This document shows positions 26,100 to 63,147 of a stretch of 64,000 nucleotides of DNA, in pieces. The stretch is taken from positions 4,938,776-5,002,775 of the forward strand of contig JARUPZ010000010.1 of the NCBI GenBank assembly GCA_031213475.1, written 5' to 3'. Each line of letters begins with the position of its first letter. Positions within the stretch are counted from its first letter, which is position 1. The notes under the pieces were generated by a model. That model saw only the letters and a list, made by a program, of their open reading frames with translations, was not told the origin of the DNA and ran no database searches. This stretch comes from Nereocystis luetkeana (lineage: Eukaryota; Sar; Phaeophyceae; Laminariales; Laminariaceae). The position numbers were made by a program, and so were the translations under genes.

Positions 26100-26440
26100 C
26101 TCCGAATCAGAGAGAGCGAGAGGCTGTCGATGAAGACACTTTTTTTTTTGGGCCAAATTGAAAGTAAAAAACCAGTTTCACACCCACCACAAGAATCAGA
26201 CGCTGTCAATGATGACGTGGACCTCGTACCAGAAGCAGCGCTCTCCTACCAGCTGTAAAAAACACATGTATGGTTGTGGTCAGACTCCAGAATCAGAACC
26301 TGAGGGTGTCGATAACGACATACTCCGAGATATCAGGTACTTTACTCGAAATCACAATCAAAATCAAAATCAAAATCAAAATCAAACCAGAACCAATACA
26401 AGAATCAGACGCTGTCGACAACAACGTCGACCTCGTGCCA
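26100..26440 (-). repeat. Tandem array of four degenerate copies of the kinase gene's last-exon end
   Basis: Four related segments end in a stop followed by TTC at 26405, 26293, 26195 and 26107, so about 112, 98 and 88 nt apart. They read [12 protein letters not shown] (the real end), YVVIDTLRF-stop, VHVIIDSV-stop and VFIDSLSLSLI. The copies lie downstream of the functional stop. This looks like tandem duplication of a unit of roughly 100 bp covering the 3' end of the gene, followed by decay. A short AAATCA-type tandem repeat (about 26353-26386) sits between the first two copies. Confidence 0.55.
26195..26254 (-). pseudogene. Diverged copy of the kinase terminal exon, possible alternative last exon
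   Basis: After a good acceptor (T-rich, ending TTTTACAG) the minus strand reads LVGERCFWYEVHVIIDSV and a stop. The real last exon ends [18 protein letters not shown] and a stop, so this is a diverged copy in phase 0. Inside the real exon, right after the codons for NDLPNA, stands a GTGCTG that could act as a phase-0 donor; splicing from there to this copy would swap the C-terminus without a frameshift. Whether it is used cannot be told from DNA. Confidence 0.55.
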
Positions 26441-29400
26441 GGGGCAGCGCTCTTCCACCAGCACCGCGTTGGGGAGATCGTTGCCCTCCACCCTCGCGCG
26501 CGCCTCCCCTTCCTCGATGCCCGTCTCCACGTGTCTCTTCCTCACCCTTGTGGCAGAGGGTGTGATACGTATGGTGACACATACATGCGCACGGCACGGG
26601 GTGTGGGACATAGCGTATGGGCACGGGAGGCGGCGGGGGGGCGGTCAGGGCGTTGTGATAGGAGACCAGGACGGGCACAAGCGACGGCGGCGGAGAGATG
26701 GGGGTGGTGGCGGCGGGCGGGGTACTCATGTCATGCATGGACGTAGTCACATGGCAATAGACCCTCGCATCCCTACAGTGCCGGGACAGAGCTGGGGGGT
26801 TTCATCAAAAAGAAAACGAGTCAACATCGTCGTTCACTGAAAAGAGGGACAAGTTGGACCCGATAGTACAGAGATGCAGATCGCGACATAGTATATGTGC
26901 GTTTCCAGGAACGTTCAAGAAAAAGGCTTCGCACATTTTTCTCGGAAACCTCCCCCGCTGCCTCTGCTGCTGCCGCTGCTGTTGCCGCTGCTTTTTCTGA
27001 GCTTCTGCTGGAGGTACTATGCGCACAACAGGCACACAAATGCGCGCGTACACGAACAAAAATACCTGGAGCATGCAGACACATACCTGGTCCACAGCAG
27101 ACGCGTTCTACGTTAAAGGTAGCACTCTACCGCTGAAATAGTTTCCCAACGGCGGGGTTCCTTAACCCCTTTAGAACCGCAGTCCCGTTTTGGGGACATT
27201 CCACTCTAATCTCAAGTACTTTGTCCCCAAATCGGGACTGCGGTTCTAAAGGGGTTAACCCAAAATCGTCGGAATGCCGATCTTGTTTCGAAAGATGACA
27301 TTTTGTACGCTGGGGCCATGGGACGATTCATCGGGATGCAATTTGGTTTTTTGCTAAAGTAATTTTTCGGGTGAGGTGTGGAGCTCCTCAAGTGAGGAGC
27401 CTCAGAAAGGTTATAGGGTGAACCTGTATCGCAGAACGCCTCAGCAGTAGTACAGATACACACAGCCAAGAGCAAACATAGAGAACAACACGCCCACACG
27501 GCACAACGTCTGACCTCTCCGCGCACACGTTCGACGGGCATCGAATGGCCCAAGCCTCGTCAAATAGCGCGCTTGCGCCGTCCCATGGTTTCACCCCCTT
27601 GAGCAGCAGGTAGTTCCCCTCCACGATTACGACGGCGTGCGAAGGCTTTACCTGTCATGAAAACGGAAAAGGCGAGAGCAACCCCAACCCCAGCCGTATG
27701 GTTACCTTGTGCCTCATTATATATTTTTCACGCGTATCTACAATGCACTACAACAAGGTATTTGTTCCGTGATTTTTGAAGGGCAGAGGGCTCCAACTGT
27801 CACCAAATATGCCGCCAAAAGGTTCTTCAGTACAAGAAAAAACAACGTTCATTTACACAAAATCAAAACAGATAGCCCGCACACTACAGACAACACAACA
27901 AAACAGAACAAATAAACGAACCAAAGCAAAGCAAAGCAAAGCGAATTGACGCAATCAGAGTATTGTATGCAGAATCTGAGGGCAACCAGAACGCCGCGCC
28001 GAGCCTCTCACATGAGACGAGACGAGACGACACGACACGCCACCCCAATCCATCCCACCGCAGCTCACCCCATTCCACGCCACCCCCAGCATGTCCTTAC
28101 CGTCCAAACGTTTTCCACAGGATCCCCCACGGCGTGATCGAACCCGGGAAAGCTTCCTCGACCGCGGCGTCTCGCTTCTCCAACCTCTCTCAAAAACCGA
28201 GCACCGTCAAAAGTCCAGTGTGCTCCCCGCCGCCGTCTAGCTTCCTCGGCGTTTGGCATCGCGTCTAGCTCACGCCTGTCGTGAGAGAGTTGGCGAGCAC
28301 GCGCCGAAGGAGGGGGGGGGGGGGGGGGGGGGTATATGTGGGGGGTGTACTCATGCCATGCATGGCCGTAGTATGACCATAGACCCTCGCGCCCCGACAT
28401 TGCCAGGACGGAGCATGCGGGGGAAGAGGGGGAGGAGGGGGATTATCGCGCTCCGAATTTCTCACAAATTATTCCGCGGGTAAGGAATTCCATTCCTCAG
28501 AGTATGTTAGAAACATCTTCCTGACCGCTTCGGAGAAACACCGCCTTTCAACATTTTTTAAAGAAACGCCGCACATCGGGAGGACGCTCAAGCGACGTGC
28601 AAGGAAACCCTCCCTGCCCGCCGGACCCCAAGGTTTCCATGTTGAGGGATGTCGCGGGAGGGTACCCTATCTATGATACCCCCCCGGCAGCTGAACGGAG
28701 TGGAGGTGGTCCGAACCTGTATAAGTGGTAGCCGTCCATGGGCACGCAAACCGCGGGAAACTCCGCTTGGACGAGCCTGCACACCTCCGCCTGCGGTGCG
28801 GGGTGGGGCGGTCGATGTGGTGTGGCACAATAAAGTAGACAAGGGAGGGGGCGGGGGGTTCTCAGCACAGTCCCGATCCGGCCGGCCATCGAGAAAATCT
28901 CGCCGAGGACAACTTCTACCCGTAAATTAGTGTGAAAGTACCAGATACGTATCACGATCATACCTGGTCGGTGTTTCAACATTCCTGTTATCACAGGTAT
29001 TTACAGGTGAGGCTTAGTCGTGCGGCGAGAGGTGTCTAACTGCTGTGGGTTTCCCGCGAACCAGGGCACGAGGGCTGGAAGACTGGGGCATTGGGATTCG
29101 GAATTCTCGAAACCGGCGGAGCACCCGCATGCAGGACACTGCATCACGAAGCATGCGGACCGGGAAACTAAGAAAGAACAATTCACGTAAGAGCGCGGTT
29201 GGGGGCGCCGGAAAGGGGTTCAATAACCCCCCGGGGCTTGTCACGGCATTAAATTAGGCAGCCACAGGCGGCAGCACTCTGGCAGGGTACGTGTTTAAGC
29301 CCGCTGTCAGCCTTCTATTTACGGTGGAATTCTGCCTCTTCCAAGGCACGTTGTTTGATTGGTCCTTAGAGCTCAGATGCGAAGCGGTTCCCGAACGCAC

Positions 29401-32400
29401 CTCGCGCCCGTTTCGCTTGCCGGGCGGCGCTTCGTCGTGAGGGGGTAAATCCTACCGACATACCTTGCGAGCGTGGGACGTTCATTACCAGGTACAGGGG
29501 GAAATTTTTATGAGGAGTCTTAAGATCGTTCCAGCTGGGTGAGTCAGAAAAAAAACGATAGTCTCGCCATCGCCGAAGAATTTGACCTCCGCACTGCACA
29601 CCAAACGCCAAGTCCATCAGCCAGCCCTACTTCACGTGACCTGGCGGTCCAAATCGATGTTCGTGTTCGAGTTAACCTCCAGGCAGACCTGAGCAATCAA
29701 AGGCAAAAAGCATCCTGGGTATGGTCTCTGATCCGTTCGGTCCAACGTTCTAGCCAAGCAAAGGCATCGGTCTACGCACATACAAATGTACACATACTCC
29801 GTACAATGCACATACCCAGGTACAAAGTATGTAGCTGGGTCGACAAAAACGGTGCAAGATGTGATTTCTCGGAAAACGGACGGACTTGGAGAAAATAAAA
29901 ATAACGCGGAATAGCCGTGTGTGGGGTAAAAGCCGTCGGAGCGCGCGGCTTCGGCGGAACTACAGTCTTGACGTTTTAAACCGCATTTTCCCTCACCGCC
30001 AGAGTAGTCTTCCCCGACCCGGGAGCCCCCGCCACAGCAACCCAGAGCTGCTCCCCCTTGCCCTCTCCGACAACGTCACCACCGCCACCATCACCACCGC
30101 CGCCGCCGCCGCCGCCGCCACCACCACCACCACTACTTGCCGTCCGTGTAGCCTCACTCCTGCTCCTTCTCTCCCGCACCGTGACCCGCAGGCGCTCGGC
30201 GAGGCGTTCGTACACCGCTTCCATCCGTCTGTCGGGCCGTTCAGGCCATTCCGGCCGTTCCGATCGTTCGGAGGGCGTGTTTCTATCTGGGTCAGCGGCC
30301 GGCCATTCATGCCGCTCCGGTTGCCCGCCGCCCCCCTCGTCTTCAACGTGCTGGGTTGCGCCTATTGGGTCAGACGACGACCCCGTGCAAGAAAGAGGGG
30401 TTTCAGGCGGCGGAGGAGGAACTGAAAGCGGCGCCTCAGGGCGTAGGCCGCCACTGCCGCTGGAGCCGCTTCCATCCACCTCTGACAGAAACCCCGACCC
30501 CGACGTCTGCCAGGGCGTCCACCACCGTCCAACTGACGTTTCTAGTTCGGCCACCTCCGTCACCGACCCTCCTGCGACTGCTGCGCCGCCACTACCGCCA
30601 CCCTCACCACCGATGCTCCCACCGAAAGCCTTCCTCAGCTCCATCAAGAGCGGTTGTTGCCCGTCGGGATTGTACGCCACCACCGGGACACCGCCGCCAT
30701 CTCCGCGCCTGCTGCTCGCTAGGTACTCCCGGTGCATGTTCCAGACGCGTTCGTCGTAGCGCTCGAGCAGTCTGGCCTCGAGGTTGCACCCCTCCCGGCC
30801 GCCCCCGCTTTCCACGACGACGCTCCCGCTACTGCTTCTCTTGACGGCAACATTTTTGGACTCACTGCAACCACCTCTGGCGACACCACTGCCACCATCG
30901 CCACCGCCAACGCCATCGGTGCCGGTGCCGTCGCTACCGCTGCAGCCACCACCGCCGCCACCGCAGCCGATATCGCTGCGGCCGCCGCTGTTGTCGCTGT
31001 TGCCGCTGTTGCCGGTGCCGCCACCACTACCGCCACCCTTACCGCCGCCACTGCTGCTGCTGCTGCTGTTGCTGCTGCTACCCTTAGAAGCATCGGCGGA
31101 ACCTCCCGGACGATCGCTAACGCTCTTAGACGATGGGTCCTTGGCGGAGGAGTTGATGCGCCGCATGAACAGGTCGGCCGTGCCGCCCCGCTGGGGTTGC
31201 ACGAGAATGGCTCGTCCGTTCGGCGCAAGGAGGGTCTCGATCGTTCTTTTCAGGTCGCCGTGGAAATCCTGAGGCCAGACAGGAATCACGGAGAGCGGGG
31301 AGTGAGGGAGGGGGGGGGGGCGGTCATGAGTGAAGCGTGCTGCTGTAGGGGTGCATCAATATTTTAATATTCCCGTGGGGCTGGTCCCTCGAGGAGCCCG
31401 ATGATAAAAAGAAAAAAATGAAGAAAAAACAAAAACGAAAGTTCAACCCGACGAGCAATCCCTAACCTCAGTAAGGTAGGTAACGACCAATCTTTTTTAA
31501 AGCACACACACAAAATGGGTTTCCAACCATAAGGCATGCCTCATAGCAGGGTAGTAGTTTCCTCAGGTGAGGAGCCCGCCAATTGCAAATATTTTGGGGG
31601 GGGGGGGCAAAAAGTACTACCAGGTACCTGGTATACTGCACTCCTATCGTAGCCCGCGTCGACTGTCCATTCTATAAAAACAGTCCTTACCTTTTGGAAC
31701 ATAGTGGCATACAGATCACGACCTATCTATCTATCTATCTATCTGCAGCGGATCATCTAGATCCTAGCCTGCCGGCCTGAGGCCCCGCACAGGACCTGCA
31801 CAGTACGGATCCAACCCGAGGAGACACGCCCTAGATCATACAGATACTGCTGTAGATCACAGAGGTAAGGGATGTGTCTGCCCTGATAAGTCTAGGATCA
31901 TGCAGCGGGAATCGATGGGTCGTCCGATGCGTGGACGACCCCCACCTGACACGAGGGAGACAGACACCCAGCAAAGCCATCCACAAACAGGAATGGTCGC
32001 GAACACTACAGGAAAACACGAGCGCCCGGACAAGTTGTGTTGCTACGTACGCACCTTGACGTTGCACCATCTACTGATCAACCCATTGAATAGTATGTGT
32101 GTTGCCGTAAATACGCACAGGAACAACGGCCCGACTCGCCTTGAAGAACAGGCAGTCCGATGCGATCACGAGATCGAAACCGCCGGGGTGCGAAGAACAC
32201 AACGCGCCCGTGCTCCCGTCTCTGTCGAGACTGTCCCATACCAGCCTTCGGGCCGAGACCTTCACAGGCGGAAAAAGAAGAAAATGGAGTCATCGAGCGT
32301 ACAGAAAAAATATCAAGCGTTTCGCCGGAGGAGAATACGATCTTGTCAGCAAACAAAAGCCAAACAAAAAAACACTGGGCTGGGAGAATTGAACCACGGG

Positions 32401-33722
32401 AAAAGAGGGAAAAGGAAAACGCATCTCACAACTCCAAGAAGGCTACTATCAATGCAACACAAAACAAACCTATTATCAATCGAACATTCTCCTGGGACAC
32501 CAAAATCTCTTCCGGGAGGACACCAAACAAAGTGAGACACCTACACGGCATTCCGCCAAAAAAAACGCAACGACAAGGGCAAGCCCTGAAATCGCGGACG
32601 CTCGCGCATTTTCCCGCCCTGCAGTGCATCACGATGCACTCTGCCCTGGCATGACACTCACGTGACCACCATTCTTCTCCGTGAAGTCGGTCGGGCCCCT
32701 CCCCCCCCCCCCCCCCCCCCCCCGCCCCACCTCTCATCCCCTCTCGTTATACCTCCCTGTCTCCTTCCGAAGAATTTTCCCTTGTCTGTACTTCTACGGG
32801 GGCACATAGTAATCAGGACCTATCATATTCACACATACTATATATTACAGACTTTTTACTGCGCTAATTTGGTCCTGGTCCCGACTACTATGCTCCCCCT
32901 TAAATTAAGTTTCCCCCGTACACTCGCCTTAGTGCTTCCGAATACGCCCTTTTTAGCGTTGAGTTCCACACACGCCTGCACGTTTGAACACACCAAACAG
33001 GGGGGGAGGGCGGGGGGGGGGGGCAAGGGGTGCACTCATGCCATGCATGGCCGTGATCGTAAGACCATAGACTCGGGCATCCCTACAATGCCGGGACGGA
33101 GCACGTTGGGTTTTCACCGACCAGGCAGACAATACTTGCACCGAGCGTGGGGGGGGAGTGTACTCGATAAGAGAGATACACTCGATCTCATGCATGGCCG
33201 TAGTCGCATGACCATAGACCCGCGCATCCCTATAATGCCGGGACAGAGCATGTTGGGTTTTCACCGACCAGGAGGACATCGCTTGACATTGCTTGCGCCA
33301 AGCGCGAAGCGCCGTAAGGAGCCCGGCGAGTCGCACGAAGGGTGATCTGCATCCTACTAAGAACCGCTTGCGAGGCGGACTTGCAACTGGATGACAGCTT
33401 CAATGAGTTAATTTAATTTCCGGTGTAGCTACTTCCCGAGACAGCAATGAGAGTACTATGTAACTGCCTCTTGGGCGCCCTACCATGAACACTACGTGAT
33501 ACGATCAATTTCCTTGTGCGGAGTAAAGGTTATTTACCTCGCACAAATGATCTAAGTCGGCGACCAGTTGTGAGTGACCACAAAAAAAAAACGGTACCCT
33601 GGTGGTCTAGCTCACGTAGTGAGCGGCATGTTTTACAGTGTCGTTGCCAATCGACGCCAACCCATCCTATATAAAACAGAGGGGGGGGGGGGGAGGGTAA
33701 GGGCCGAGAGGAGCGAGGGATC

Positions 33723-33762
<40 letters not shown>

Positions 33763-36700
33763 CAGTGGCGACAGTAACAATAGTAGAGGCAGTAGCAGCA
33801 GTAAAAGCAACAGCAGTAGAGGCAGCAGCAGAGACAGGGAGATAACCCCAAGGTTGTTTGTTGGCGCTAGCTGTTCAATGTGGCGCCGAGGGTGGCGGTG
33901 GCGGGGGGGGGGGGGTGCAGTGGGAGATGGGGGAGTAAAACCTGAGCGGTCCCCATCTATAATCCGCTCGAGCACACGCCACTGCAAACAGCAAGCGGTA
34001 TCGCCACAGCAGTGCCCCCAAGCCCGCCCAAAAAGAAAACAAGACGGCTGAGTGTGGTTCAAGAAATTCAGACGAAACCGCACTGCACTGGGCAATAACC
34101 AAGGTATCTCCACATCGAAATAGGTCAAAAGCGGACCGTTGGCCGGCCAGGTGAGCTCCTTCGTGCCCCCCACCAAAACCCTCCCCCACCCATGATAAAA
34201 TGTATTTCGATAGTCGACGCCCCTTCCCGCCTTTTCCCTACGGCCGACCCGAAGTGTGACAGTAACACAGGATGACAACCTCTCCAAGGTCCATACCGTA
34301 AGCATTGTATGCGCCCGGATCGAAATATGTGAACGCATACGTTCGTTTCTTTTTCTCGGCCCAAGCCTGAAGGAGAAAGTTTATTGTTTGCAAAGATACA
34401 TGATTACATTACATATATATTACTTATATACGAAATACATGTGTTGTTCGGTGATGGGACACGGCATCATCAAAATCACGCGCAATCAAGTTGTATGCTC
34501 GATATTTTTATAAGTTCGTTGCGACCTAAACAAAAATACCGCCAGCCTCCAAACGACCCCCCGAAATCAGTATGCCCTCGCGAAACAAACGCCAAAGCGG
34601 CTGGGACCTTGGCGCCATGATCCCCTGCGTCCTAGACGCTGCCAGAAACGCCTGTCTCCGCAAAAAAACTCTCGAGCCAAAAACGTAGGATGCCTTATCA
34701 TCCAACTCAAAGGCCGTATCCTTGCTTACACTTACTTGCTCCGTTCATTTTTCGGTACAACCAGACATAACCGGATCCGTCGAAGCACCAACGGACCACC
34801 CGGTTTGCGTATCATTGGGCTTTGGGGTTTCCACATCACCGTTTTCCCCCTAGCAACCGCCGTTTCTAATGGACAAGACTGGGGGGGGGGGGAATGAGAA
34901 GGTGCAAAAATAAGTACCGAAAGTGGAGGGCAATAACAACGTACCTCCAAGTTTCGTAGCGCGTCCGGGTTTCCGTCGGTAATGACCACGTCGGTAGCTC
35001 CCGAAGAAGCTGCCACTCCCAGCCCCGCGAGGCCGGTCTTGCCGGCGCCCAGCTCCAGCACACGGCTCCCTTCCAGAGATGAAACTAACGGTCTGAGGGT
35101 ATAGTAGCATAATAGGGCATCAGGTGTTACGAAACAGTTGGCGGCCTTAAGAAAAACAAAGAATACGTCAGCAGCTGAGAGAGCGGGGTCGGGGTGGGGC
35201 GGGGGGTGGGGCGGGGGTGGGGGGGGGGGGGGGGGGGGGTCGGCGATGTACTATATAGCTGGCATTGTGTTTTGTATTTACCAGTGCCGGTCGTGTTGTG
35301 CTGCAAGAAAAAAAAAATTATGAGTTTGTCGATGGTTCAACGCGTTAGCTTCGTTTTTCCGACAACGGAAAATAATTAAAAAAAAAAAAAGTCGCCAAAC
35401 CCTCTTGGAAAAGCACAAATATTTCGGAAAGCCAGCTGGCTGATTGGTCGTATCGGCTTTCGTCCTGAACCTGAAAGATAGCGACTGTACAACTCGTGTT
35501 GGTAGCACAGTTTATACTTCCTTTGGGCCTTATAACCCCTTTTTCATACCGGCGGCGGGCAGAAACACATATCTGGCTCAAATTCTAATGTATTATGTCC
35601 CCGTGTCGGGAATGCGGATCTAAAGGGGTTAACCCCTCACGAACTCACCGGCCGCGGTCTTGGGATAGACCAGCTGGTATCGCTGTAGACTGGAATAAGT
35701 TATGCAGAGGTGTAAAGTGGATATGCCCGGTACGCTCGAATCCTTGCCTGTTCTCTTCGTCGTAACTCGAGATCGAGGTCTAAGAGCATGGACCCCCTGC
35801 CCCCCCCCCCCCGCCCCTCCCACTTCCCCGCTTCAAAAACGTGGGCATTGATAGATTGGGGATATAAAGAACAGCTTCGGAGAGTGGTTGCCGACTACGA
35901 TCGATTGCGGTTCATCGCCGGCGACCCTGTTGCTTGTGTGCCGCCTGCTATCATGTTGCAATGACCACCCTCTGACAACGCCGAAAATCGGGCGAGCACA
36001 TAACCACGCAGCATGCATCGATCAACGTGACGGTACAGCGCCAGTGAGCCGACAAGCCCGTCCGGTCTAGATACTCAATCGGTACGCTTTTTTTTGTACT
36101 CTTGGCGACCCTTCGCGAGGAGCACGAAAACGCTTCTACAACACTACAACACTATCAGAGGACAGCCAATCACAACACCAACACATATCATGTTCATGGT
36201 AGAGATAAGAGGCCCAGTCAGGTTGCGAGCAGTGACACGTTTGTTTGGAAAATCCCGCTACATGCTACTCGATAACTAGTCAGCGTTGACTAAGACTGAG
36301 TGTGTTGATTTCAATAGCTCAGCAGTGCAGCGTTCGGCGACAGGACGCGCCCCGGAACACCGCCGATAGTTTGGCCCAAAACGAAAGTACGTACTTTGGT
36401 TGCAAGCGGAGAAAACCGACCAGACAAATTGCTTGTTCGGTCGCGTAAAAAGAGATTGACAAACCCGCGAGACTGCTTACCGGCATATCAGGACCGACTT
36501 TCTATGAACAAAAAATAATACCTGGTACCCGGTACGAGTCTAATACGTGGGAGCATAGAAATAATCACAGGGGGGGATACATGTTTTTTTTGGGCCCATC
36601 GTGAGTTCTGATTTTATCACGCCCCCCTACGTACAGCAGCAACGCTAGTATACGGGGGACTATAGTAAATAGGACCTACGGTACACACAAAGCCCTCTAG

Positions 36701-39700
36701 ATTTCCCTATTTTTACCAATAGTGTTTGGCCCTATTTACTATTTACGATGGTCCCCCGAAATAGCAGGTTATCCCTCTTATCTCCAACACCACATGTCTT
36801 TGTGTCCTGGAGACGCGAAAAAAAAAAAAACGTTTTTCGCCGCACCGCACCCGGAGAGAAGTGTGTGAAGCAGAACCTGCTCCGCCGGCCAGACGCGCAC
36901 GTTTCCCGTGTTGTCCACGCCATGGACGCGGTGCGCGAAGAGCTGCTGCAGGGTCACGGTGGGCCTGCCTCCTCGTCCCCTTCGCGACGACGCCTCCTGG
37001 GTCACCACCTGAAACACACAAAAAAGAAACAGGAATTTGGGCGGGAGTAGCTTGGTGCTGCTGCTGCTACTGCTGCTGCTACTGCAGCAGCTGTTCTTCT
37101 GCGGCTGGCGTTGTTCCTCTTACTGGTGCTGTACGAACGCAGATATCGTTGCGTGGAGGGTCACACGCTATGTACGAGGGAGGATGTTGGACCTTGCGCT
37201 GTGTGGGTGTCGGGGCTCGAGCAGCGACGATTTGGACACTAGGTAAAACAAAACGTACTATTACGGGGGACCATAGTTAATACCCTGGTAGGACCAAATA
37301 TTGTTAGTAAAAACAGTTAAACATATAGTTTTTAATGTATACCATAGGTCCTATTAACTATGGCCCCCCGTAATACGAGTACAGCAGGTATGATTATGCG
37401 TGAAATGAGAAAATCACATTTTTCAGAGGCGGGGTACTCGTTCCAGTTCAGCCAACGCAGGGGGGGGGGAGGGGGGTACTCGTTTATTGCCAGCCTTGGC
37501 CATTTTACCATTGGCCACGCCTCCCACTCGATACTGAGCACTGTTTCTTCTCCTAATGAGACACCTCCAACCTTGGGGCGTTCATGACGTTTTTTCCACA
37601 TGTTCCATTTTTTTTTAAAATGCCTACCAGGTACGTATCTTTTTCCTTTTCTTGTTTTGCCTTTTGTGTCCACCATCTATTTCCTAGGATAGCGATCGTT
37701 TTTTCGTTAGTATCTAGAGTAACAACCTCCCCCATGTCAGGTCCGTCTGCTTCCCTGATTTCCTCCTCCAACACATGCGGAGAAGGGGGGCGTACTCACT
37801 CGTTGCTTTGCCTTAGTCGTTTGGCCATTGACCACGCACCCCTTTCGAGACGGGGTACCACTCCTACATATAGTCCCAATAGAGACACCTCCAACGGTTG
37901 GGCGCCCACTACGACGTTCTTTCAATATATGACATACCTGGTACAAGATTTTGCTAATATTATTCCCTTTTGTGTTTCGGGGGTTAAAACACGTGTCGAC
38001 TACAAGTACGGATTTTGCTTTCTCTATTTCACCCTTGGAAGCAGTCCTGAAGCTGCCAGAAAAGGGGGGGATGTGTATGCATTACAGCAGCATATAGACG
38101 CGTTTGATATCGGCAAAAAAAAACGGTTGACGGCGCGAGCGAGCCAAGAGCAACTTGACAAAAATAATGAATCATATGTGCGCTCTCGTTGACACAGAGT
38201 TTCGGCCGTGAAACAGACGCGCGTATTTCAACATGAAACCTCCTCGCTCTTCTAGGCTGCTATTAATAGTAATAGTGTGCTGCGAGTGCTGCCTGCGCCC
38301 ATTGAAACGGTATGGGTCAAAGCGTTGCTCAGGTGAACGCATCTTGGGAATGATATACGCTGGACGACTTCGCGACGAGCCGAGAACGTTCGTCGTTCAA
38401 GCGCGCAACACGCAGCTGGGTCGATGCATACCTGGTATGACACGGACGTGGCGTTGGTAATAAGCCCTTCAGAACCTCACCCTCGTTTTAGGTTCAAACT
38501 ACTACGGTAGGAATTAATGGAGGATGTCATGATATCTCAGTTTCCCCTCTATAGATGTGGAGGCGTTACTATTTTTATTCCCCAGGGAGAGGAATACATG
38601 CCCTTCCTCTCAAAATAATCTGGAGAGGCAGGGAAGTGCTTAACCCTTTTAGAACCGCAGTCCCGATTGGGGACAAACTACTCGAAATTTGAGTGGATTG
38701 TCCCCAAAATGAGACTGCAGTTCTAAAAGGGTTAAGAGGCCTCGGTATCTCCACGAGTAAGCGCACCCATGTTTCAGAGACAAACTACTACCTGGTAGGA
38801 ATTAGATAGGCATCAGTTTTGCAGCGTGGTAAATGGGTCAAATACGGAAAACAAAAAAAACGACACTTATCAATAAAACGCCTTATTTGCAGGACGAAAA
38901 AAAAAACAAACTGCCAGCAGAAGCGCTGCAACGATTTCCGATGCGTCCACCCCGCGGGGGCACTTTTGTCATCTCCCTGGAGTTTCTGGGGGTAGGGGGT
39001 AGGGTACAAGCTGCATGCTGCTGTACATCACTGCTATTGTGCACAACTGCTGTACTTTGCGCTCCTGCTTCTGTCGTGCTGCTGCCTGTGGAAGGCGGGC
39101 TCGATGTCTGGGCAGTGTCGTGGGAACAAATAAGCAAGCGAAACACCCTGGTACACATGTCCGGAGGCAGCGGTTCCACCCCTTGGAAGGCAGCAAATTT
39201 GCCGTATTCTGCCTTGACTGAAAACAAACTACTCCCAGGTAGGTTTTAGTGTGGAGCACTCGGCCCCACACCTTCGATAGTTGCACAAGTTTCTCTTGCT
39301 TGGCCATTTCGCCTCTGACATGCTCGAATGCAAGCCTTATTACCTGTGAGCCGTTCGGCAGTTGGTACGTCGCCAGAATAACGCCTCCGCCAAGCTCTCC
39401 GTCCGACTTTTCTTCTTGTCTGTGCATCGGATGTCGCAACAAAGAGCAAAAACCAAAGGGTCGGGCAAAGAGGGGGGTATACCATTGTACGGCGGTATAT
39501 CTGCCCGGGCAGGCTGGCGTATCGACAGATACATGATACTAATAATGAGCAGGCAGATCGGGTTGCTGTGCTGTTGTTGCAATACGTAATAAGGACTTGA
39601 CACTGACTTGCTGACTGCACCATGGGCCATCATACAATCTCGCCGCACACGACGTACCAGGTACACAGTACCAGGTATTGCTGTTCACAGATGTACAGTG

Positions 39701-40264
39701 CTGTGCAGCAGCAGCAGCAGCAGCAGCAGAGGCAAACGCCGATCACGCGGCTGTTTGCGTTCCAGCGACTTGCTCGCAAGAAGAACGGCCGACACCTTGA
39801 CATTTCTGCGTCGAAACCGACGGCAGACCAGGAAGGCGCTTGCACGACTCGTTGTACGAGTACGACTCGTTGTACGAGTACACAAAACTGTACGAGCTTT
39901 GTGTTGTGATCTCATTGCGAAGCCCGCATCCCGATAGGTTGATAGATGTACGTAGAACAACGGCGTCTATAGACGCAACACAGCAGTAGTACCGCGGATT
40001 TAGGAACCTGGGAAAGAGCTGGAAGCCCTCGAAGCGCTTCTCCTGATCTGCGATGCCCGTACCGCCTCCACTGCTGCTGTTGGTGCATCTGCTGCTGCTG
40101 TTGTTAATATTAATATTAATAGCAGGAGTACCAGCAGTAGTGTCTGCGCCTCCCCCCCCTTCTGCTGTTTTGGAAGCGGCGACAGCTGACAAAAACGCAT
40201 TTCGGAGCGTTGACCACCTCGCTGACGGAGCGCCACCATCACGGTTGGTACTGGCCCCAGACAT
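26405..40264 (-). CDS. Calmodulin-lysine N-methyltransferase-like / YFH7-type P-loop kinase fusion, 10 exons
   Basis: Exons, 5' to 3': 40264-40008, 39419-39272, 37008-36877, 35145-34945, 32259-32140, 31268-29997, 28790-28717, 28275-28101, 27651-27515, 26546-26405. They sum to 2658 nt (885 codons plus stop) and every junction agrees in phase. Methyltransferase: [10 protein letters not shown] and RFEGFQLF near the N terminus, [16 protein letters not shown] motif [16 protein letters not shown], then [24 protein letters not shown] (the DxxF signature of seven-beta-strand lysine methyltransferases), [17 protein letters not shown] and [14 protein letters not shown]. This order matches CaMKMT, which trimethylates calmodulin. 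Kinase (from about residue 635): Walker [61 protein letters not shown] and [15 protein letters not shown], as in YFH7-like P-loop kinases of unproven substrate. A short exon between 34945 and 32259 is probably missing (about 15-20 residues). One intron (32139-31269) starts GC. The fusion call is strong; exact borders less so. Confidence 0.8.
26730..26806 (+). repeat. Poly-G-led dispersed module, partial copy
   Basis: ACTCATGTCATGCATGGACG then CCCTCGCATCCCTACAGTGC; truncated after the CGGGACAGAGC word. Confidence 0.55.
27162..27258. mobile_element. MITE-like hairpin, family 2
   Basis: A near-perfect inverted repeat of 97 bp: TTAACCCCTTTAGAACCGCA at the left and TGCGGTTCTAAAGGGGTTAA at the right, then CGTTTTGGGGACA / TGTCCCCAAATCG inside. 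It lies in the intron between the last two exons of the fusion gene. Confidence 0.8.
28313..28425 (+). repeat. Poly-G-led dispersed module
   Basis: A run of about 20 G, then TGTACTCATGCCATGCATGG and GACCATAGACCCTCGCGCCC. It lies in the fusion-gene intron next to kinase exon 28275-28101. Confidence 0.6.
29997..31268 (-). CDS. Fusion exon joining methyltransferase C-terminus, low-complexity linker and kinase P-loop
   Basis: A single exon of 424 codons, open from end to end. It starts at [16 protein letters not shown] just after a CTCAG acceptor, carries the last methyltransferase strands, and contains two Gly/Ser/Asn-rich insertions. One insertion sits inside the methyltransferase, before [16 protein letters not shown]; the other follows [11 protein letters not shown]. 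The exon ends with [17 protein letters not shown] and a GTGAGG donor. A methionine about 76 residues before the exon end ([12 protein letters not shown]) looks like the natural start of a free-standing kinase, so an older separate kinase gene may have been joined here. No in-frame stop and no forced intron separates the two parts, which is why a fused protein is inferred. Confidence 0.8.
32795..32902. mobile_element. MITE-like element, family 1 (diverged copy)
   Basis: Begins TACGGGGGCACATAGTAATC and ends in an inverted version (ACTACTATGCTCCCCCTTA), enclosing TCAGGACC / GGTCCTGG. Confidence 0.5.
33000..33130 (+). repeat. Poly-G-led dispersed module
   Basis: A G run, then TGCACTCATGCCATGCATGG, CATCCCTACAATGCCGGGAC and GGGTTTTCACCGACCAGGCA. 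Immediately followed by the longer copy at 33150. Confidence 0.6.
33150..33680 (+). repeat. Long dispersed repeat, copy 1
   Basis: Matches 58600-59110 in the same orientation, with many substitutions. Shared words include CATGCATGGCCGTAG / CCATAGACCC, GGGTTTTCACCGACCA, GGCGCCCTACCATGAACAC and GTCTAGCTCACGTAGTGAGC. It is made of the poly-G-led module plus about 330 bp more. It lies in an intron of the fusion gene. Confidence 0.65.
33724..33759 (+). repeat. CAG microsatellite (about 12 units)
   Basis: CAG run followed by imperfect AGCAGT-type repeats to about 33835. Lies in an intron of the fusion gene. Confidence 0.85.
35530..35633. mobile_element. MITE-like hairpin, family 2 (decayed left half)
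   Basis: The right half (GTCCCCGTGTCGGGAATGCG then TCTAAAGGGGTTAA) is kept and the left half has diverged. Confidence 0.45.
36651..36762. mobile_element. MITE-like element, family 1
   Basis: TACGGGGGACTATAGTAAAT is mirrored by ATTTACGATGGTCCCCCG at the other end, with AATAGGACC / GGCCCTATT inside. It lies in the intron upstream of methyltransferase exon 35145-34945. Confidence 0.6.
37261..37373. mobile_element. MITE-like element, family 1 (intact hairpin)
   Basis: Terminal inverted repeats TTACGGGGGACCATAGTTAA and the mirrored TTAACTATGGCCCCCCGTAA pair almost perfectly over about 30 bp, with an AT-rich loop. It has no coding capacity and sits in an intron of the fusion gene. Confidence 0.75.
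38640..38735. mobile_element. MITE-like hairpin, family 2
   Basis: The same element as at 27162: TTAACCCTTTTAGAACCGCA ... TGCAGTTCTAAAAGGGTTAA, with GGGGACAAACTACTCGAAAT on the left of the loop. Intronic in the fusion gene. Confidence 0.8.
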
Positions 40265-41260: not shown

Positions 41261-41357
41261 TTAACCCTTTTAGAACCGCAGTCCCGTTTTGGGGACAAAC
41301 TACTCGGAATTTGACTGGTTTGTCCCCAAAAACGGGACTGCGGTTCTAAAAGGGTTG
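41261..41357. mobile_element. MITE-like hairpin, family 2
   Basis: TTAACCCTTTTAGAACCGCA ... TGCGGTTCTAAAAGGGTTGA. Intergenic, upstream of the fusion gene. Confidence 0.8.
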
Positions 41358-56893: not shown

Positions 56894-59603
56894 TCATATC
56901 AACGCAGAGAGCCATTCCCGTACCAGCGTTAGTGCAGCGTGCAGGGGGGGGGGCACGAACGGCTCCTCCACGCCGTGAGGGTGCCGTTGCTCGATGGCAA
57001 TGTTGATCTTGGTGGTGAAAATATGCTTGTACAGGTGGAAATGTCGATAGTAGCTGCGGAAAGAAAAGTGTGCGCGACGAGCGAGTGAACAAAAAGCGGC
57101 GCAATGAGCACAAATCTATGGCAAACAGTGCCCTTAATGAATTGCGTGTAGCGCTGTTGTTCACACGCGCCCAGTCGTCATCGGTGTGGCTTGAGGTGGC
57201 TGACTATAACACAAAACACAGCCATGCCTGAAAATGCCTTTTTTCACCAAAACAAGTGCGAACGACATTGAATAATTGATACTACGCAGTGCTGAGGAAT
57301 TCCGTTTTCGTGGACCACGCTACCAACAGCAGGACGAAGCTCATGGGAGATGGCGCGTATGATCTATAACAGTAAGGATCGCCGTTATTACTAACGGTAG
57401 ACTACCAGGGAGTAGTGTAGCTCAACGTATAGAGATAGTTCCTTCTACCTAAAACATTCTTCTGCGTCGATTGAAAAACGTTCCTCACATAAATGCAGGC
57501 CGAAGCAGACAAAGATCAACCCAGCATCTTCAACCGAAACCACGGAGAGAAGTTTTTCGGAGAAGTAAATACCAAACGCACGACAGGATTCAGGTTCCGT
57601 GAAAGTAACATAGTTACCGGCCATCAAACAAAGCCATAAACGAGGCCACGAGCGGCGGTTAATAAAGTCAATAGCATATCTGGATATGTGGAAAGGGGGG
57701 AGGGGGAGGGGAGCTTGCCTGTTGGACACGTAGTCCGTGATCGCGCCGATGTCTTTAGGACAGAGAACGCCGGTCGTCCATGGTGGTCGGTCTACGGCAT
57801 GTCGGAGAATAAGTTCCTCAAACCGATCGAAAGATGCCCTCAAGGACGACTTCGAATCGTTGGTGGCCATGTCCTTTTTCGAAAGCGAAAGATGTGGGCG
57901 TAGGCAACCGGGCTCAGGAAAGCGAGGTATATCGGGTCGTGATTGCTGGGCAGATTGAGATAGGCGTCCTGGGTCGCTTTGGAGGCAAATTCTGACAGAG
58001 TACCAGTGCCTGGTATTAATAGTGAGAAGGGGCGTGAGTTTTTCAACGGGCACCCACTCTATTCCGCGCAGCCGAATAGGTAAACCAATGCGTGCGAGAA
58101 ACAACCCCATGATTCTACCACGCGCGCGCAACGAAGGTAGGAGCGTCGTCCGGTGGACCTCGTCCTCCTATGCTGCAGGCGAACGGTACCGAAGCGGTGA
58201 CTCAACAAATTCATGCTCGAATGCACTCGAGGTCCCGGAAGCCGCTCTATCCCTTGGCTTCTGTTTCACTGCCGCCTTGGTGGAAGTACACGAGCCTCAA
58301 CCACTATGTGCGATGAATGTGTCAACCTCAACAAACAAAGACAACCAGATAACGTTCATGCAGACTACGTTACTGTTGTAACAAACCTTCTCATAGAAAA
58401 GAGCCCGACAAGCAGCTAAGCCTTCGGTTTTCGAGGGAATAAGAAATTTGGGAGTGGTTATGCTGATGAAGTTAGTGTGGCGCATTCCTTTCTTAGCTAA
58501 GAAATCTAGTATGGGTCAGTATCCCGGTTCTTGAGAGGGGGCCGGGACTGCATACCGTCAATAGAAAGCATGTGAATAGCGGGCTTTAGGTCGATGCTTC
58601 GTTGGAAGTACTTAGAGGGGGGGGGGGTGAACTCAATATCATGCATAGTCGAACCATAGACCCTCGCATCCCTACAATGCCGTGATGGAGTACGTCGGGT
58701 TTTCACCGACAAGGCAGACATTGCCTGCACCAAGCGCGAAGCGCCGTGAGGTGTTGAGCGAGTCGCATGAAGGGCGAGCTGCATCCGACTATAAAACGCT
58801 TTTGAGGCGGACTTTCTCGCCTATGGATGACAGCGTCAATATATTGAAGTATTTCCCGGTAAGCCATTTCCAGAGACCGCACTAGGTTTACTATGCAACT
58901 GCCTAGCGGGCGCCTTACCATATACACACTGCGTGATACGATCATCTCCCTTGTTCGGAGTTGAGGTTCTCCGCCCACAAAATATCTAACTCGACCGCCA
59001 GCCGTGGTGACCGCCGAAAACAAAACGGGATCCTGGTTGTCTAGCTCATGCAGCGAGAGGCGTGTTTTACAGCGTCGTCGCCAACCAACGTCAACCCAAC
59101 CTATATATATATATACCTTGTATACAATATCGTACTTGGAGGGGTGGGGGGCTCATTCGCAGTTTGAAGGATGGGATGCACGGGCGGGGGTGGTTTAGGA
59201 GGTATTTTGTGCGTAAAATCGCTTTGGCGCGTCGCACTACAGCAGTATTGCGGGGTTTTTTTTACGAGTGGTCTTCGTTTTAGTTTCTTGGTCAATTGTT
59301 GACATTTACACACGCTACATATTGTCGGATGGCAAACATAGTTATATTATAGTAATAAACATGTAACATCGTATGAGTCTCACCTCGTCCAAAACATCTC
59401 TCATGATGGACAGGAATGTTGACGTAGCACGAGCGTCGAAACGCCGCTCCTTGCAGAAAGCGTAGTTGTAGTAGTGGAAGTCCAGCACAATGTTTTCCTT
59501 GTCCGTCAACTGTTCTATTCTAGTGATGGCATCGTCATCACCCGGTCCACCCTCTCTCTCGTCGCTCTTGGACGCCCCAAGCCCGAGGTACACTGCCAGG
59601 AGC
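56894..59603 (-). CDS. CFAP119/CCDC189-like flagellar protein, three 3' exons
   Basis: Exons 59603-59384, 57873-57719 and 57053-56894 join in phase (0, then 2) and end at a TGA. Recognisable stretches in order are LLAVYLGLG, DKENIVLDFHYYNYAFCKER, ATSTFLSIMRDVLDE, FDRFEELILRHAVDRPPW, CPKDIGAITDYVSN and YYRHFHLYKHIFTTK. This order and spacing match CFAP119 (CCDC189, DUF4464), a protein linked to motile cilia and sperm flagella, where the equivalent block is an F-x-x-F-x-x-L helix, an RPPF motif, DYV and YFRH-x-K-LYKY-x-FT. The second intron (57718-57054) begins GCAAGC, a classic GC-AG donor. The first exon found may extend upstream past an alternative acceptor (FSDSWLLFRLLAVYLG reads on without a stop). 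No start codon was identified. The C-terminus after EEPFV is family-variable. Confidence 0.75.
58600..59110 (+). repeat. Long dispersed repeat, copy 2
   Basis: Sister of 33150-33680, starting with a G run and GTGAACTCAATATCATGCAT and ending near GTCAACCCAACCTATATA. It lies in an intron of the CFAP119-like gene. Confidence 0.65.
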
Positions 59604-62600
59604 CTGAAGAGGAGCCAGGAGTCCGAAAAACTGTGGTGTAAGCTCTGCTATCATTTGTCCGACCAAGCACGTGAACCAACCCTCCCCCCCCCCCTGTACT
59701 TTATCCCGCCTGCAACCACCGACGTTTTTTATTGTGGTCGACGCGCAAACTTCCGCTGCACTCGGGAATAACGCGCTCCGATGCACTACAAAATCCCATT
59801 GCTGGTACGTGCGTAGTGGCCCCGCGCTTCCGATCGTCCGTAGGATTTACGAGCTCGCAACCCCCCCCTTTTGTACGACTGCTGTGCTGCAGGTCGAGCT
59901 TTCCATAAAAGGTTTGTCCTATACGAAGTATACCGGTACAAATGTGTCAGCTGTGGGTAATACCGATTGTAGAGTCGAAGCTCATCTGTGCAAGCTGCGC
60001 CAGGTTGCGGGTTACTGGTTATGATCGAAAATGTGTTTGATTGGGCAAGGGTTGGAGGTTCTGATCCTGGAGGACGTCTTCACATATGGAGACGTGAGAG
60101 CAACGCTTGACAACAACCGAGGGTCGCTGCAGGAACTGTCAGCGCCTCCATGTTCAAATATGAATGAACTTTGGAGTACTGCATGCGCGTGCTCGGACGC
60201 AATTGGGTCGTTGACATCTTTACAATACGTGCTGTGGTACCGTTGCCAAAAGTTGGCGATTGCAGCACGGACTCGCGCGTATATTTTCGCATCACCACCT
60301 ACTGCCTTCTTGGGGTACAGTAGTCCTGCACAGTACTCATTCGTCATCTCTCAGCACCCCCTTATAGTTTTACTCACGTTTTGCATTGAGTGTGCTCTAG
60401 CGCAGCTTCGAGGCAGCTGATCTGCTCAGCGCTGAAGTGCTTCCATGCGACCGATGTAGCCTGCACGTAGGATGAAGGGGCAGCACGCAAGATGCTGGTA
60501 TTAATACTCGTAGTACTGCTATGCGGTGTTGATCGCCCGAAAAGCCAGCACATCTTTTCAAGTGCACCTACTGTAGTACACGTTGTAAATAATATCGATT
60601 CTACCCCGATGAATATACCTCACAACAGTGGCAGCAGGGCCTGTGTGGTTTATTCTCACTACAATTCACGGTCTCATACACAGTTAACTGACGCGATCCT
60701 CTGGTGGAGAAAGCCAGCCTACTACGGTACGTAGCGATTCCGACAACAATGACCTGGCGAAGAATAGATCGATGCTCTTGGTGATTTTCCCCGTCGCTAC
60801 GTCCGAGTACAACAATCGCCGAAAATCATGAAAACAGCCCTCTCTGCTCGCTGCCACGGGGCGAACACCCTCATACGATCATCGAGCCTGGGATACCAGT
60901 GACACCTCACCATACGTCTCCTGTTTGTGTCCTCAAGTCCACGAAAGGAGAGTGTATCTCTGTCTCGATGTCTCAATGCTGCACTCGGTAGACATGGAGA
61001 CGACACGAAACGCCAGCATGCGGCGGAATAACAGAAGCACACACAAATCCAGTCAAATGTTGGACGAAATGCGGCGGAATTGATGGCGGCAGTCGACACT
61101 TTTCGAGCTTTGACCGTTGGCCACGACGGTAGGGGGGGCATCGACGATGCAGCGACTTAGGAACCCGGGCGAGGTGGTATAAACACCAACTAGGAAGAAT
61201 ACCAAACCGGTGATTTGTAGCCCACATACAAATTATCGTGGTGTATCTTTCATTAATAGTACGTACGACCGATGTCAACTACCAACCACAACAGTAGCAA
61301 CACGTTTTAATAAAGTACGAAAGTAAACTGTATGGTAGAGAACGTACAGGCGAGCGCTGCGGTCCATGTCAGGTGCTGTACGCCGCTATCCTCGCATGCC
61401 ACCGCCTTCACACTTGCTGGCTGGTGTCACGCGTAGGAGCACCGCTGCGTATATGAATGCATAGGGTGAACCACAAGCAGGACGGTGCCACCGATCGAGG
61501 TTCTTTCAAATGCCGTGAAAGTAGTCGGCGCGACCCACGAAAGTTTCCTAGATATAGGAGAGATGCCGCAGATCGATGTTGTGTGTTTCGGTGCCTTCGT
61601 ACGTTCGCACGAAGATACGAGTACGAGTACGCAGCCGCTTTCAATGGAAAGCATCGCGCTGATTTTTTATAGCGTGAAATGACACGCCCTCCCCTCTCCT
61701 CTTCGTTCGAGTAGCATCTCGTTCATGCAACGTTGCTTCCTCGAAGCGCAACGTCTCTCCTCTTCGTTCGAGTAGCATCTCGTTCAGCAACGTTGCTTCC
61801 TTCGAAGCGCAACGTTGCTCTCTTGCACCTTGTGTGCGAGTTCAGTAGATCTGATGTACCAGTTGCTCGTACCTGGTACGTATGTGACTACCTGGTACGC
61901 ATTTTGCCATATTGTCTCTGTGGAATAACGTGTACTGGCAGAGTTCAAATTAGAACCGACGACGAGTACCAATAGTTGACTTCTGAGCTGTGTTTCTTAT
62001 CACGAAATGAAAGGAACCATCATCACAGAAATCACGCACATCAAAGGAACCCCTCAGCTTGCTAATCTGAGCATCGATCCATTTTGTGGTTGAACTCACA
62101 GCAGTAAATTTGCGGTGTTAATAAAACATCGTTCGACAGCAAATAAAATTCATGGATGCCGTACTCGTACCAAGCAGCGGCCATGTTGGGTCCGAGTGGT
62201 ACCCGGTTCAACATATTTGAGCAGGTACGAAAGTACTGTTATGTATGCAGCTCTCAGACTGGTAATACTGCGCATCAGCACCCCAACCGGTGACCCCGAG
62301 GGCGGTCGATACATGAAACTGTCGTCCATCATCTCGAAGCAGGTATACGAACGAGACCCCTCCGGAGAAAGAAAGCAACCCCGGTTCAGGAACCTTTTCG
62401 CGCCCAACCACATTGTTTTTTCCGTGTTGCCCACTCTAGCTTAGAACTGCAGTAACTGTAAATACTGTAGAGTACGGGCGGCGGATCTACGAGAAAGAGA
62501 AAATCCTTCGCCCTCACTCAGTCCCTGCGGGACATGACTTTAGCAAGACCCCCGCGAACGGCGCTTCGCAAGGCTCCCAGCCTCCCCCCAGCTCCCGCGA

Positions 62601-62625
62601 GACCCCCCCCTCCACTAGCACCCAC
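59604..62625. other. Unassigned region between the CFAP119-like and NSF-like genes
   Basis: The first exons of the CFAP119-like gene and the later exons of the NSF-like gene should both be here, but none could be fixed. Contains the 63 bp tandem duplication. Confidence 0.4.
61690..61816 (+). repeat. 63 bp tandem duplication
   Basis: Two head-to-tail copies of a segment containing CTCTTCGTTCGAGTAGCATC and GCAACGTTGCTTCCTCGAAG; the second has single-base indels. Confidence 0.75.
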
Positions 62626-63147
62626 TTCAAGCAATGCCTGCTCAAAGTTTCGAACGGTTACCACAAGCCTAGTATTCCCGCCTTCCTCCGCCGGCGCGAC
62701 CCCAGCACCTGCGAAATTAATCTCACTGCTGCCCGACTTTGATGTTGGTACCCCATCTTGCGTCGTCCTTGACGCCTCTCTCTCCCCTGCTTGCACCGCG
62801 CCCGCAGCTAGCGGCAGCGGCAGCGGCAGCGGCGCATGGTTGCCGTCTCTTCGTCCCACCCCATCCTTGTCACCGCTTAAGCTGTTGTCGTCGTTGTCGT
62901 CGTCGCCGGTAGTGGCGGCAGCGGATGCCTGGCTTGGGTCTGGCTGCCTCCAGTCGGCAATGGCAAAGCTGGTGGCGGAGCGCACGAGCCCTGCCAGGTC
63001 GGCGCCACTGAACCCGCGGGTTTTCTGAGCGAGGGAGGCGTCTTCAACTTCGGGGGACACCAGCCCCGCGTCCCTGGCCTTGCGGAGGTGTATTGTGAGG
63101 ATTTGCCGTCGCCCGCCCACGTCCGGCAGCGGGATGGGCATGCACAC
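62626..63147 (-). CDS. NSF-type AAA ATPase, one internal exon (end of D1 domain), partial
   Basis: A 174-codon exon follows a pyrimidine-rich acceptor (TACTGTAG at 63148). It reads MPIPLPDVGGRRQILTIHL, then GLVSPEVEDASLAQKTRGFS, GADLAGLVRSATSFAIADW, and after a long insert LVVTVRNFEQALLE, with a likely GTGGGT donor at 62625. In NSF (vesicle-fusing ATPase, which disassembles SNARE complexes) the same order occurs at the C-terminal lid of the first ATPase domain: LPD-x-x-GR-x-QIL-x-IH, NFSGAE-x-EGLV, and the DF-x-x-AL helix. The insert of about 90 residues, rich in Ser, Asp, Gly and Leu-Pro repeats, is unusual. Walker motifs must lie upstream, beyond or near the window end; the following exon below 62626 was not found. 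The open frame continues to a TGA at 62518, which would give a truncated product if the donor is not used. Confidence 0.65.

Follow-up and report, generated by a model that had tools for sequence, protein, structure and literature searches.

We analyzed a 64,000-nucleotide stretch of the Nereocystis luetkeana genome (contig JARUPZ010000010.1, forward-strand positions 4,938,776 to 5,002,775; hereafter the window), in which a preliminary description, made from the letters alone, had placed a gene joining a calmodulin-lysine methyltransferase (CaMKMT)-like domain to a Yfh7-type P-loop kinase. The assembly holding the window comprises 465 Mb in 1,987 contigs, and the window contains no letters N. 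Splicing on the minus strand gave an 868-residue frame from 11 exons, running from 40264 to 26405, with all phases compatible and the stop codon ending at 26405. Eight introns were of the GT-AG type and two of the GC-AG type, the GC donors following exons 5 and 6. All motifs quoted in the preliminary description were found in the joined protein, in the order given, on the minus strand and within the proposed gene span; one 12-residue motif occurred in no single frame and was formed across the exon 8/9 junction. Ten exons in compatible phase had been proposed. The phases were indeed compatible, whereas the count rose to 11, and we guess that the 48-base exon 5 (32928–32975) was the one missed.

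All exons described here lie on the minus strand. Exon 1 (40008–40264) carries the start, a helix, and RFEGFQLF of the CaMKMT N-terminus, and was aligned with the homologous records P0002, P0003, and P0005. Exon 2 (39344–39419; phase 2 in, phase 0 out) matched P0001, and exon 3 (36851–37008), which contains the CaMKMT signature, had its 3' end set from P0001–P0003 and P0005. An 18-residue stretch between WPAEQ and PLVSS was considered as coding sequence and rejected, since the homologues show exon 3 continuing to LLSG and the stretch is intronic. The S-adenosylmethionine (SAM)-binding motif and the TDGN loop are encoded by exon 4 (34945–35092); exon 5, aligned with homologues, and exon 6 (32140–32259), which encodes DCLFF, follow. 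Pfam and Protein Data Bank (PDB) sequence matches were computed on an earlier 877-residue model, from which the final model differs only at the exon 3/4 junction.

Exon 7 (29997–31268) is 1,272 bases long, exactly the 424 codons reported for a single open exon holding both the methyltransferase C-terminus and the kinase Walker A motif. In order, it encodes the end of the methyltransferase core (VQPQRGG), a low-complexity insert, the methyltransferase C-terminus, a linker, the kinase N-terminal helix, and Walker A. At 459 codons, the stop-free run around this exon is the longest in the window, and the whole exon was open in none of 5,000 dinucleotide shuffles. The same layout was observed in the contig open reading frames (ORFs) P0152, P0159, P0184, P0187, and P0189. 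The linker (30225–30623; 133 codons) extends from the methyltransferase C-terminus to kinase Met618 and was predicted to be disordered in the relative P0002. The remainder of the kinase is encoded by exons 8 (28717–28790; PMDGYHLY), 9 (28101–28275), 10 (27515–27651), and 11 (26405–26546), the last of which holds the kinase C-terminus, NDLPNA, and the stop codon.

The methyltransferase and kinase domains

A domain search of the joined protein, as the preliminary description had proposed, recovered both families on one chain, with scores well beyond those expected by chance. PF10294 matched residues 176–317 of the 877-residue model (E 1.1e-16; 61.5 bits, above the curated cut-off of 21), and PDB entry 4pwy (CaMKMT) was matched by sequence with E 2.4e-25 and 92.2 bits; other solved family-16 structures scored far lower (METTL21A, 28.6 bits; METTL21B, 23.5 bits). 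The SAM motif, the acidic loop, and DxxF/Y form a family-defining set, and DxxF is a hallmark of lysine methyltransferases. The window methyltransferase keeps the SAM motif, the TDGN loop as the acidic loop, and SDCLFF as DxxF/Y, and thus resembles CaMKMT (4pwy) in these features as well as in overall sequence. Its C-terminal PD..QPLL motif resembles the HYP.LL ends of stand-alone CaMKMT relatives. Unlike CaMKMT, the window enzyme has a low-complexity insert before the C-terminal strand, and its frame passes that strand without a stop, on into the kinase. CaM-KMT has been described as the enzyme that methylates calmodulin Lys115 (PMC11514484). These sequence matches support the assignment of the N-terminal domain as a putative CaMKMT-type family-16 methyltransferase. 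A PF10294 profile search of the genome returned 16 exon-level matches, 12 of which were taken as loci, and the window gene itself was absent from the 16, indicating low sensitivity. Among those 12 loci, there was no near-identical second copy of the window methyltransferase; the best-scoring match had 45% identity over 73 residues, and the highest identity was 58% over 36.

The kinase domain was matched by sequence to PDB entry 3c8u, a bacterial "fructokinase" (E 4.1e-22), and to yeast Yfh7 (2ga8, E 5.1e-15; 2gaa was also matched). Its best NCBIfam family was NF006743 of the PRK09270 group, named "nucleoside/nucleotide kinase family protein" (E 9.8e-40). Six kinase landmarks were searched for and all were kept. 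Walker A, MDG.H (MDGYH), FDH..GDP, EGNY, and NDxPNA (NDLPNA) were intact in the window and in all eight other brown-algal records; that these five motifs define the family is our own reading. The C-terminal domain is therefore supported as a probable PRK09270/YggC/Yfh7-type P-loop kinase, in agreement with the preliminary description, though it scores below the curated cut-offs. YggC presumably belongs to the PRK09270 group. The best NCBIfam match, the top Foldseek match, and the kept landmarks liken the domain to PRK09270, YggC (COG1072), and the "fructose transport system kinase" 3c8u; unlike that group, the window kinase scores under the cut-offs, is eukaryotic, and is fused to a methyltransferase. 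It shares its family with Yfh7 (2ga8, 2gaa) by sequence and fold, whereas Yfh7 has a circular permutation, according to the PDB title, and a longer chain. To our knowledge, Yfh7 is a stand-alone protein without a known substrate.

Kinases of this type occurred in bacteria, plants, fungi, and algae among the kinase matches listed, and we take Arabidopsis At1g03030 to be a member. At1g03030/yggC (COG1072) was predicted by comparative genomics to be a sugar/polyol kinase, with a test then in progress (PMC3223725). AT1G03030 also appears, under a different protein name, with a partly Ca2+-dependent change in an Arabidopsis proteome (PMC12680889), an entry too thin to serve as the basis of a Ca2+ link. 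No settled substrate for this kinase type was found in open-licence PubMed Central (PMC) full text on Yfh7, SPAC227.14, PRK09270, and At1g03030. Related kinases were also seen in other joined proteins. P0006, a jgi record, has an rRNA adenine dimethylase-type domain (PF00398) with such a kinase on its C-terminal side, another methyltransferase-kinase join that is perhaps independent of the brown-algal one; P0007 (Monoraphidium minutum; a 1,237-residue model) combines a related kinase with a protein-kinase domain.

Structure was modelled with AlphaFold for the relative P0002 (759 residues, 32-sequence alignment). The predicted local distance difference test (pLDDT) values were mostly above 90 in the kinase and mostly below 50 in residues 339–466, which comprise the linker and the C-terminal part of the methyltransferase. 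Foldseek with this model returned 3c8u first (TM 0.82 by target), followed by Yfh7 (0.51) and 4pwy (0.61). The modelled kinase fold was thus that of 3c8u and Yfh7, and the 4pwy match agrees with the CaMKMT-like assignment.

The joined arrangement in other brown algae

Comparison with other records gave stronger evidence of one gene than the open linker of the window did. A search with the kinase part at the fusion length range returned ten proteins, of which the top five (P0001–P0005) all had PF10294. The closest, P0001 (90% identity over 81% of the query), bears the source label Undpi1, which we take to be Undaria pinnatifida. The five came from Undaria (per the label), Ectocarpus sp. 12, Scytosiphon promiscuus, and two EukProt records, P0002 and P0003, which fall in the brown-algal clade and were counted as brown-algal by tree position. 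A kinase-only search added P0011 (Ectocarpus sp. CCAP 1310/34), P0012 (Ectocarpus sp. 12), and P0013 (Hapterophycus). PF10294 was present on the same model in six of these eight gene-model records (P0001–P0005 and P0012), which represent five proteomes, P0004 and P0012 both being from Ectocarpus sp. 12. The preliminary description had proposed looking for this domain order in other brown algae and stramenopiles, and these brown-algal records show it. The two without PF10294 are P0011, which starts mid-linker, and P0013, a 182-residue partial. P0057, the ninth kinase record in this clade, comes from a contig as an ORF without splicing; it covers kinase exons only and is neutral on the fusion.

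A methyltransferase search gave 65 matches, including five short records tagged "lgn", presumably from Logan assemblies. The brown-algal methyltransferase C-terminal motif was found in 8 of 193 retrieved proteins, and in all eight the frame stays open past RPD(R/Q).M as far as Walker A, a count weakened by the motif having been derived from brown-algal sequences, so that stand-alone enzymes could not match it. Five of the eight (the contig ORFs sharing the exon 7 layout) extend past the exon 7 donor into the would-be intron; they are thus unspliced, with a single-exon layout like that of the window and no join made by a gene predictor. The claim of one polypeptide is accordingly supported by the same in-frame arrangement in gene models and unspliced ORFs of other brown algae. 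Between the end of the methyltransferase motif and the kinase Met, the linker measured 115–147 residues in nine sequences including the window, with the frame kept. The junction motif upstream of this Met, RPD(R/Q).M, was present in 11/11 sequences, and 10 of the 11 had W..W in the linker (the exception was P0001). Linkers were alike within orders (window versus Undaria, z 10.9; P0002 versus P0003, z 18.6).

Several other observations weigh against a fusion of two such enzymes. The joined arrangement rests on gene models and unspliced contig ORFs, no fusion transcript having been seen, and the search admitted proteins of 0.55–1.75 times the query length, so that short ORFs stopping early in the linker could be missed. 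The 133-codon linker alone was open in 288 of 5,000 dinucleotide shuffles; with a chance of 0.058, its openness was rejected as sole proof of fusion. Codon periodicity in the linker was weak, GC content by codon position was not clearly coding and was uninformative, and linker similarity between orders was marginal (z 0.3 to 3.2). Gene models disagreed on the linker, P0005 and P0012 skipping it and P0011 beginning within it, and the P0001 model lacked the methyltransferase C-terminal motif. Other methyltransferase motifs were missing from the models P0004 (W..E signature), P0005 (SDCLFF), and P0012 (W..E and QPQRG). The 1,530-residue model P0003 additionally takes in an unrelated gene from downstream, with cysteine-rich repeats and PF02622, a sign that predicted models of this group can wrongly join neighbors. 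In the P0002 structure model, the methyltransferase core had pLDDT values of mostly about 60–80 and its C-terminal part values below 50. The kinase did not reach the curated NF006743 score (135.9 bits versus 227), a cut-off also missed by P0034 from Klebsormidium (184.9) and P0018 from Pirellulaceae (173.6), and it fell just under the PF00485 (PRK) cut-off (19.1 bits versus 22), which the stand-alone kinases P0014 and P0015 pass. Since the linker varies among models and is only marginally similar between orders, the evidence for a single gene is better than that for any particular linker.

Origin of the fusion and alternative explanations

The two enzymes had been described as separate proteins in animals and plants. 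Stand-alone animal methyltransferases and plant kinases were indeed found, whereas no animal-named kinase was present among the matches listed. The 65 methyltransferase matches included proteins about 300 residues long from arthropods, nematodes, and an oomycete, and kinases of stand-alone length were from plants, fungi, a trypanosome, and bacteria (among 120 of 877 matches listed). All 11 stand-alone methyltransferases inspected, which were chosen by us, stop no more than about 20 residues from the homologous C-terminal motif; examples are P0134 from Chrysoparadoxa australica (449 residues), the transcriptome record P0135, marked complete (442 residues), and P0146 from Albugo. The transcript P0014, also marked complete, encodes the kinase alone (283 residues), and Met618 (MEAVYERL...) corresponds in alignment to the first residue of kinases that stand alone, for example P0068 (MEKVYDEL). 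By eye, the P0014 N-terminus is hydrophobic at first and then rich in Ser, Thr, and Arg, which resembles the plastid signals of complex-plastid algae; the hydrophobic signal-like start is absent from the fused proteins. From P0014 alone, the ancestral kinase may have been plastid-targeted, in which case the fusion would keep the kinase outside the plastid.

Both domains were placed in quick, midpoint-rooted trees without bootstrap. In the methyltransferase tree (40 rows), the seven brown-algal sequences formed a clade (SH-aLRT 99), which was nested with Albugo and Chrysoparadoxa enzymes in a group of 22 rows (SH-aLRT 99), apart from the named-animal group. In the kinase tree (75 rows), the brown-algal clade of nine rows, including P0057, had an SH-aLRT of 100 and a long branch, and its neighbors were not resolved. 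Shared ancestry with the Tribonema kinase was considered and set aside, as the tree does not group the two. Because the inspected stand-alone methyltransferases end near the point where the window frame continues, and because P0014 encodes the kinase alone, the fusion looks derived. Most simply, two genes that had been separate would have become fused in the brown-algal lineage before the split of Laminariales and Ectocarpales, the orders to which we assign the fusion-bearing algae; no records named Fucales, Dictyotales, or other orders were present among the matches listed.

The explanation we favor, with a probability of about 0.78, is a genuine fusion in at least two brown-algal orders that arose by stop loss and yields a bifunctional protein with methyltransferase and kinase activities. 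The data show the open spliced frame, the kinship of both domains in sequence and fold, with their catalytic motifs, and the conserved joined arrangement; the route, the activities, their substrates, and any functional coupling are inferred, as follows. An ancestral CaMKMT gene would have lost its stop codon, and reading would have continued across a new linker of about 130 codons, intrinsically disordered in the product, and into a PRK09270/YggC/Yfh7-type kinase gene, whose likely old start Met (the M of RPDRRM) would be retained at the junction. The product would be one bifunctional protein with two independent enzymes on a flexible tether. With S-adenosylmethionine as methyl donor, the N-terminal domain would modify a lysine of a target protein, by kinship most likely calmodulin Lys115, and the C-terminal domain would phosphorylate a small metabolite at the expense of ATP, a sugar or polyol being the likeliest substrate. 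Such a fusion would fix co-expression, a 1:1 dose, and a shared location; tight channelling is less likely, given the flexibility of the linker.

A pair of overlapping or adjacent genes could produce a similar picture if the methyltransferase mRNA left exon 7 by splicing or ended near the C-terminus of the enzyme, the kinase started at Met618 (30224), and the joined frame were an accident of GC-rich sequence. The alignment of Met618 with the start of P0068, the modelling of P0011 as a kinase starting in the linker, the chance level of linker openness, and P0003, which shows that predictors are able to merge neighbors, all fit this account. However, no stop closes the methyltransferase within exon 7, the junction motif and W..W are kept in frame (11/11 and 10/11), and all eight records with the brown-algal methyltransferase end continue in frame, five of them as unspliced ORFs; we consider two genes quite unlikely. 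A single gene whose linker is partly spliced out is possible but doubtful, and this account overlaps with the favored fusion, so that the two are not exclusive. The main product would then have a short linker, and the C-terminal strand of the methyltransferase or the N-terminal helix of the kinase may be absent from it. P0001, P0005, and P0012 are modelled in this way, each differently, but what these models remove includes the C-terminal motif of the methyltransferase, a counterpart of which was present in the 11 stand-alone relatives inspected, and gene predictors often splice around low-complexity coding sequence.

The fusion may also be real with a methyltransferase target other than calmodulin, which is compatible with the core of the favored explanation. 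The tether would then bring the kinase to that target or keep it out of the plastid. Family-16 enzymes have diverse targets, and the signal-like start of the kinase-only transcript P0014, absent from the fused proteins, is consistent with this idea; against it, CaMKMT is the closest solved relative by a wide margin in bit score, and the CaMKMT signature is kept in the window, making another target unlikely. The preliminary description held that one polypeptide couples calmodulin methylation to a small-molecule kinase, a coupling that is putative here. From the published work, a link of Ca2+ to metabolism is at most conceivable. That the protein acts as one device seems highly unlikely: calmodulin methylation and a sugar/polyol-type kinase would together tie Ca2+/calmodulin signalling to carbon metabolism, e.g., mannitol/fructose phosphorylation, or to NAD(P) supply via a methylation-sensitive NAD kinase, and would reveal the orphan Yfh7/YggC pathway.

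Taken together, we read the gene as a genuine and conserved fusion that joins domains of two known families, with a putative coupling. The architecture is unusual, but fusions of enzyme domains are not rare; no description of this one was found in open-licence PMC full text on CaMKMT, calmodulin methyltransferases, and brown-algal composite genes. A fusion kept across two brown-algal orders is a Rosetta-stone clue tying the orphan kinase to the CaMKMT pathway, and, if the domains prove merely co-expressed, it would still be a clean marker fusion of brown algae.

Other features of the window

An inverted-repeat element of about 95–100 bases was found at 27162–27258, 38639–38736, and 41263–41356, in introns and flank of the gene. 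Its arms of 32–37 bases, like TTAACCCCTTTAGAACCGCAGTCCCG..., are 85–97% complementary, and a weaker copy was seen by eye at about 35530–35640. The TTAACCCCTTTAGAACCGCAGTCCCG-type repeat looks like a small mobile element resembling miniature inverted-repeat transposable elements (MITEs). A second inverted-repeat-like element, of the GGGGGACYATAGTWAATA... type, was seen by eye in two neighboring introns, at about 36640–36760 and 37265–37375; it was not reported by the inverted-repeat search, which required arms of at least 25 bases. Two further open stretches on the minus strand matched Pfam domains. The one at 57448–58167 matched CLAMP (flagellar C1a-32; E 3.1e-5, 24.7 bits versus a cut-off of 22.7), and the one at 62521–63147 matched the AAA+ lid domain PF17862 (E 8.5e-9).

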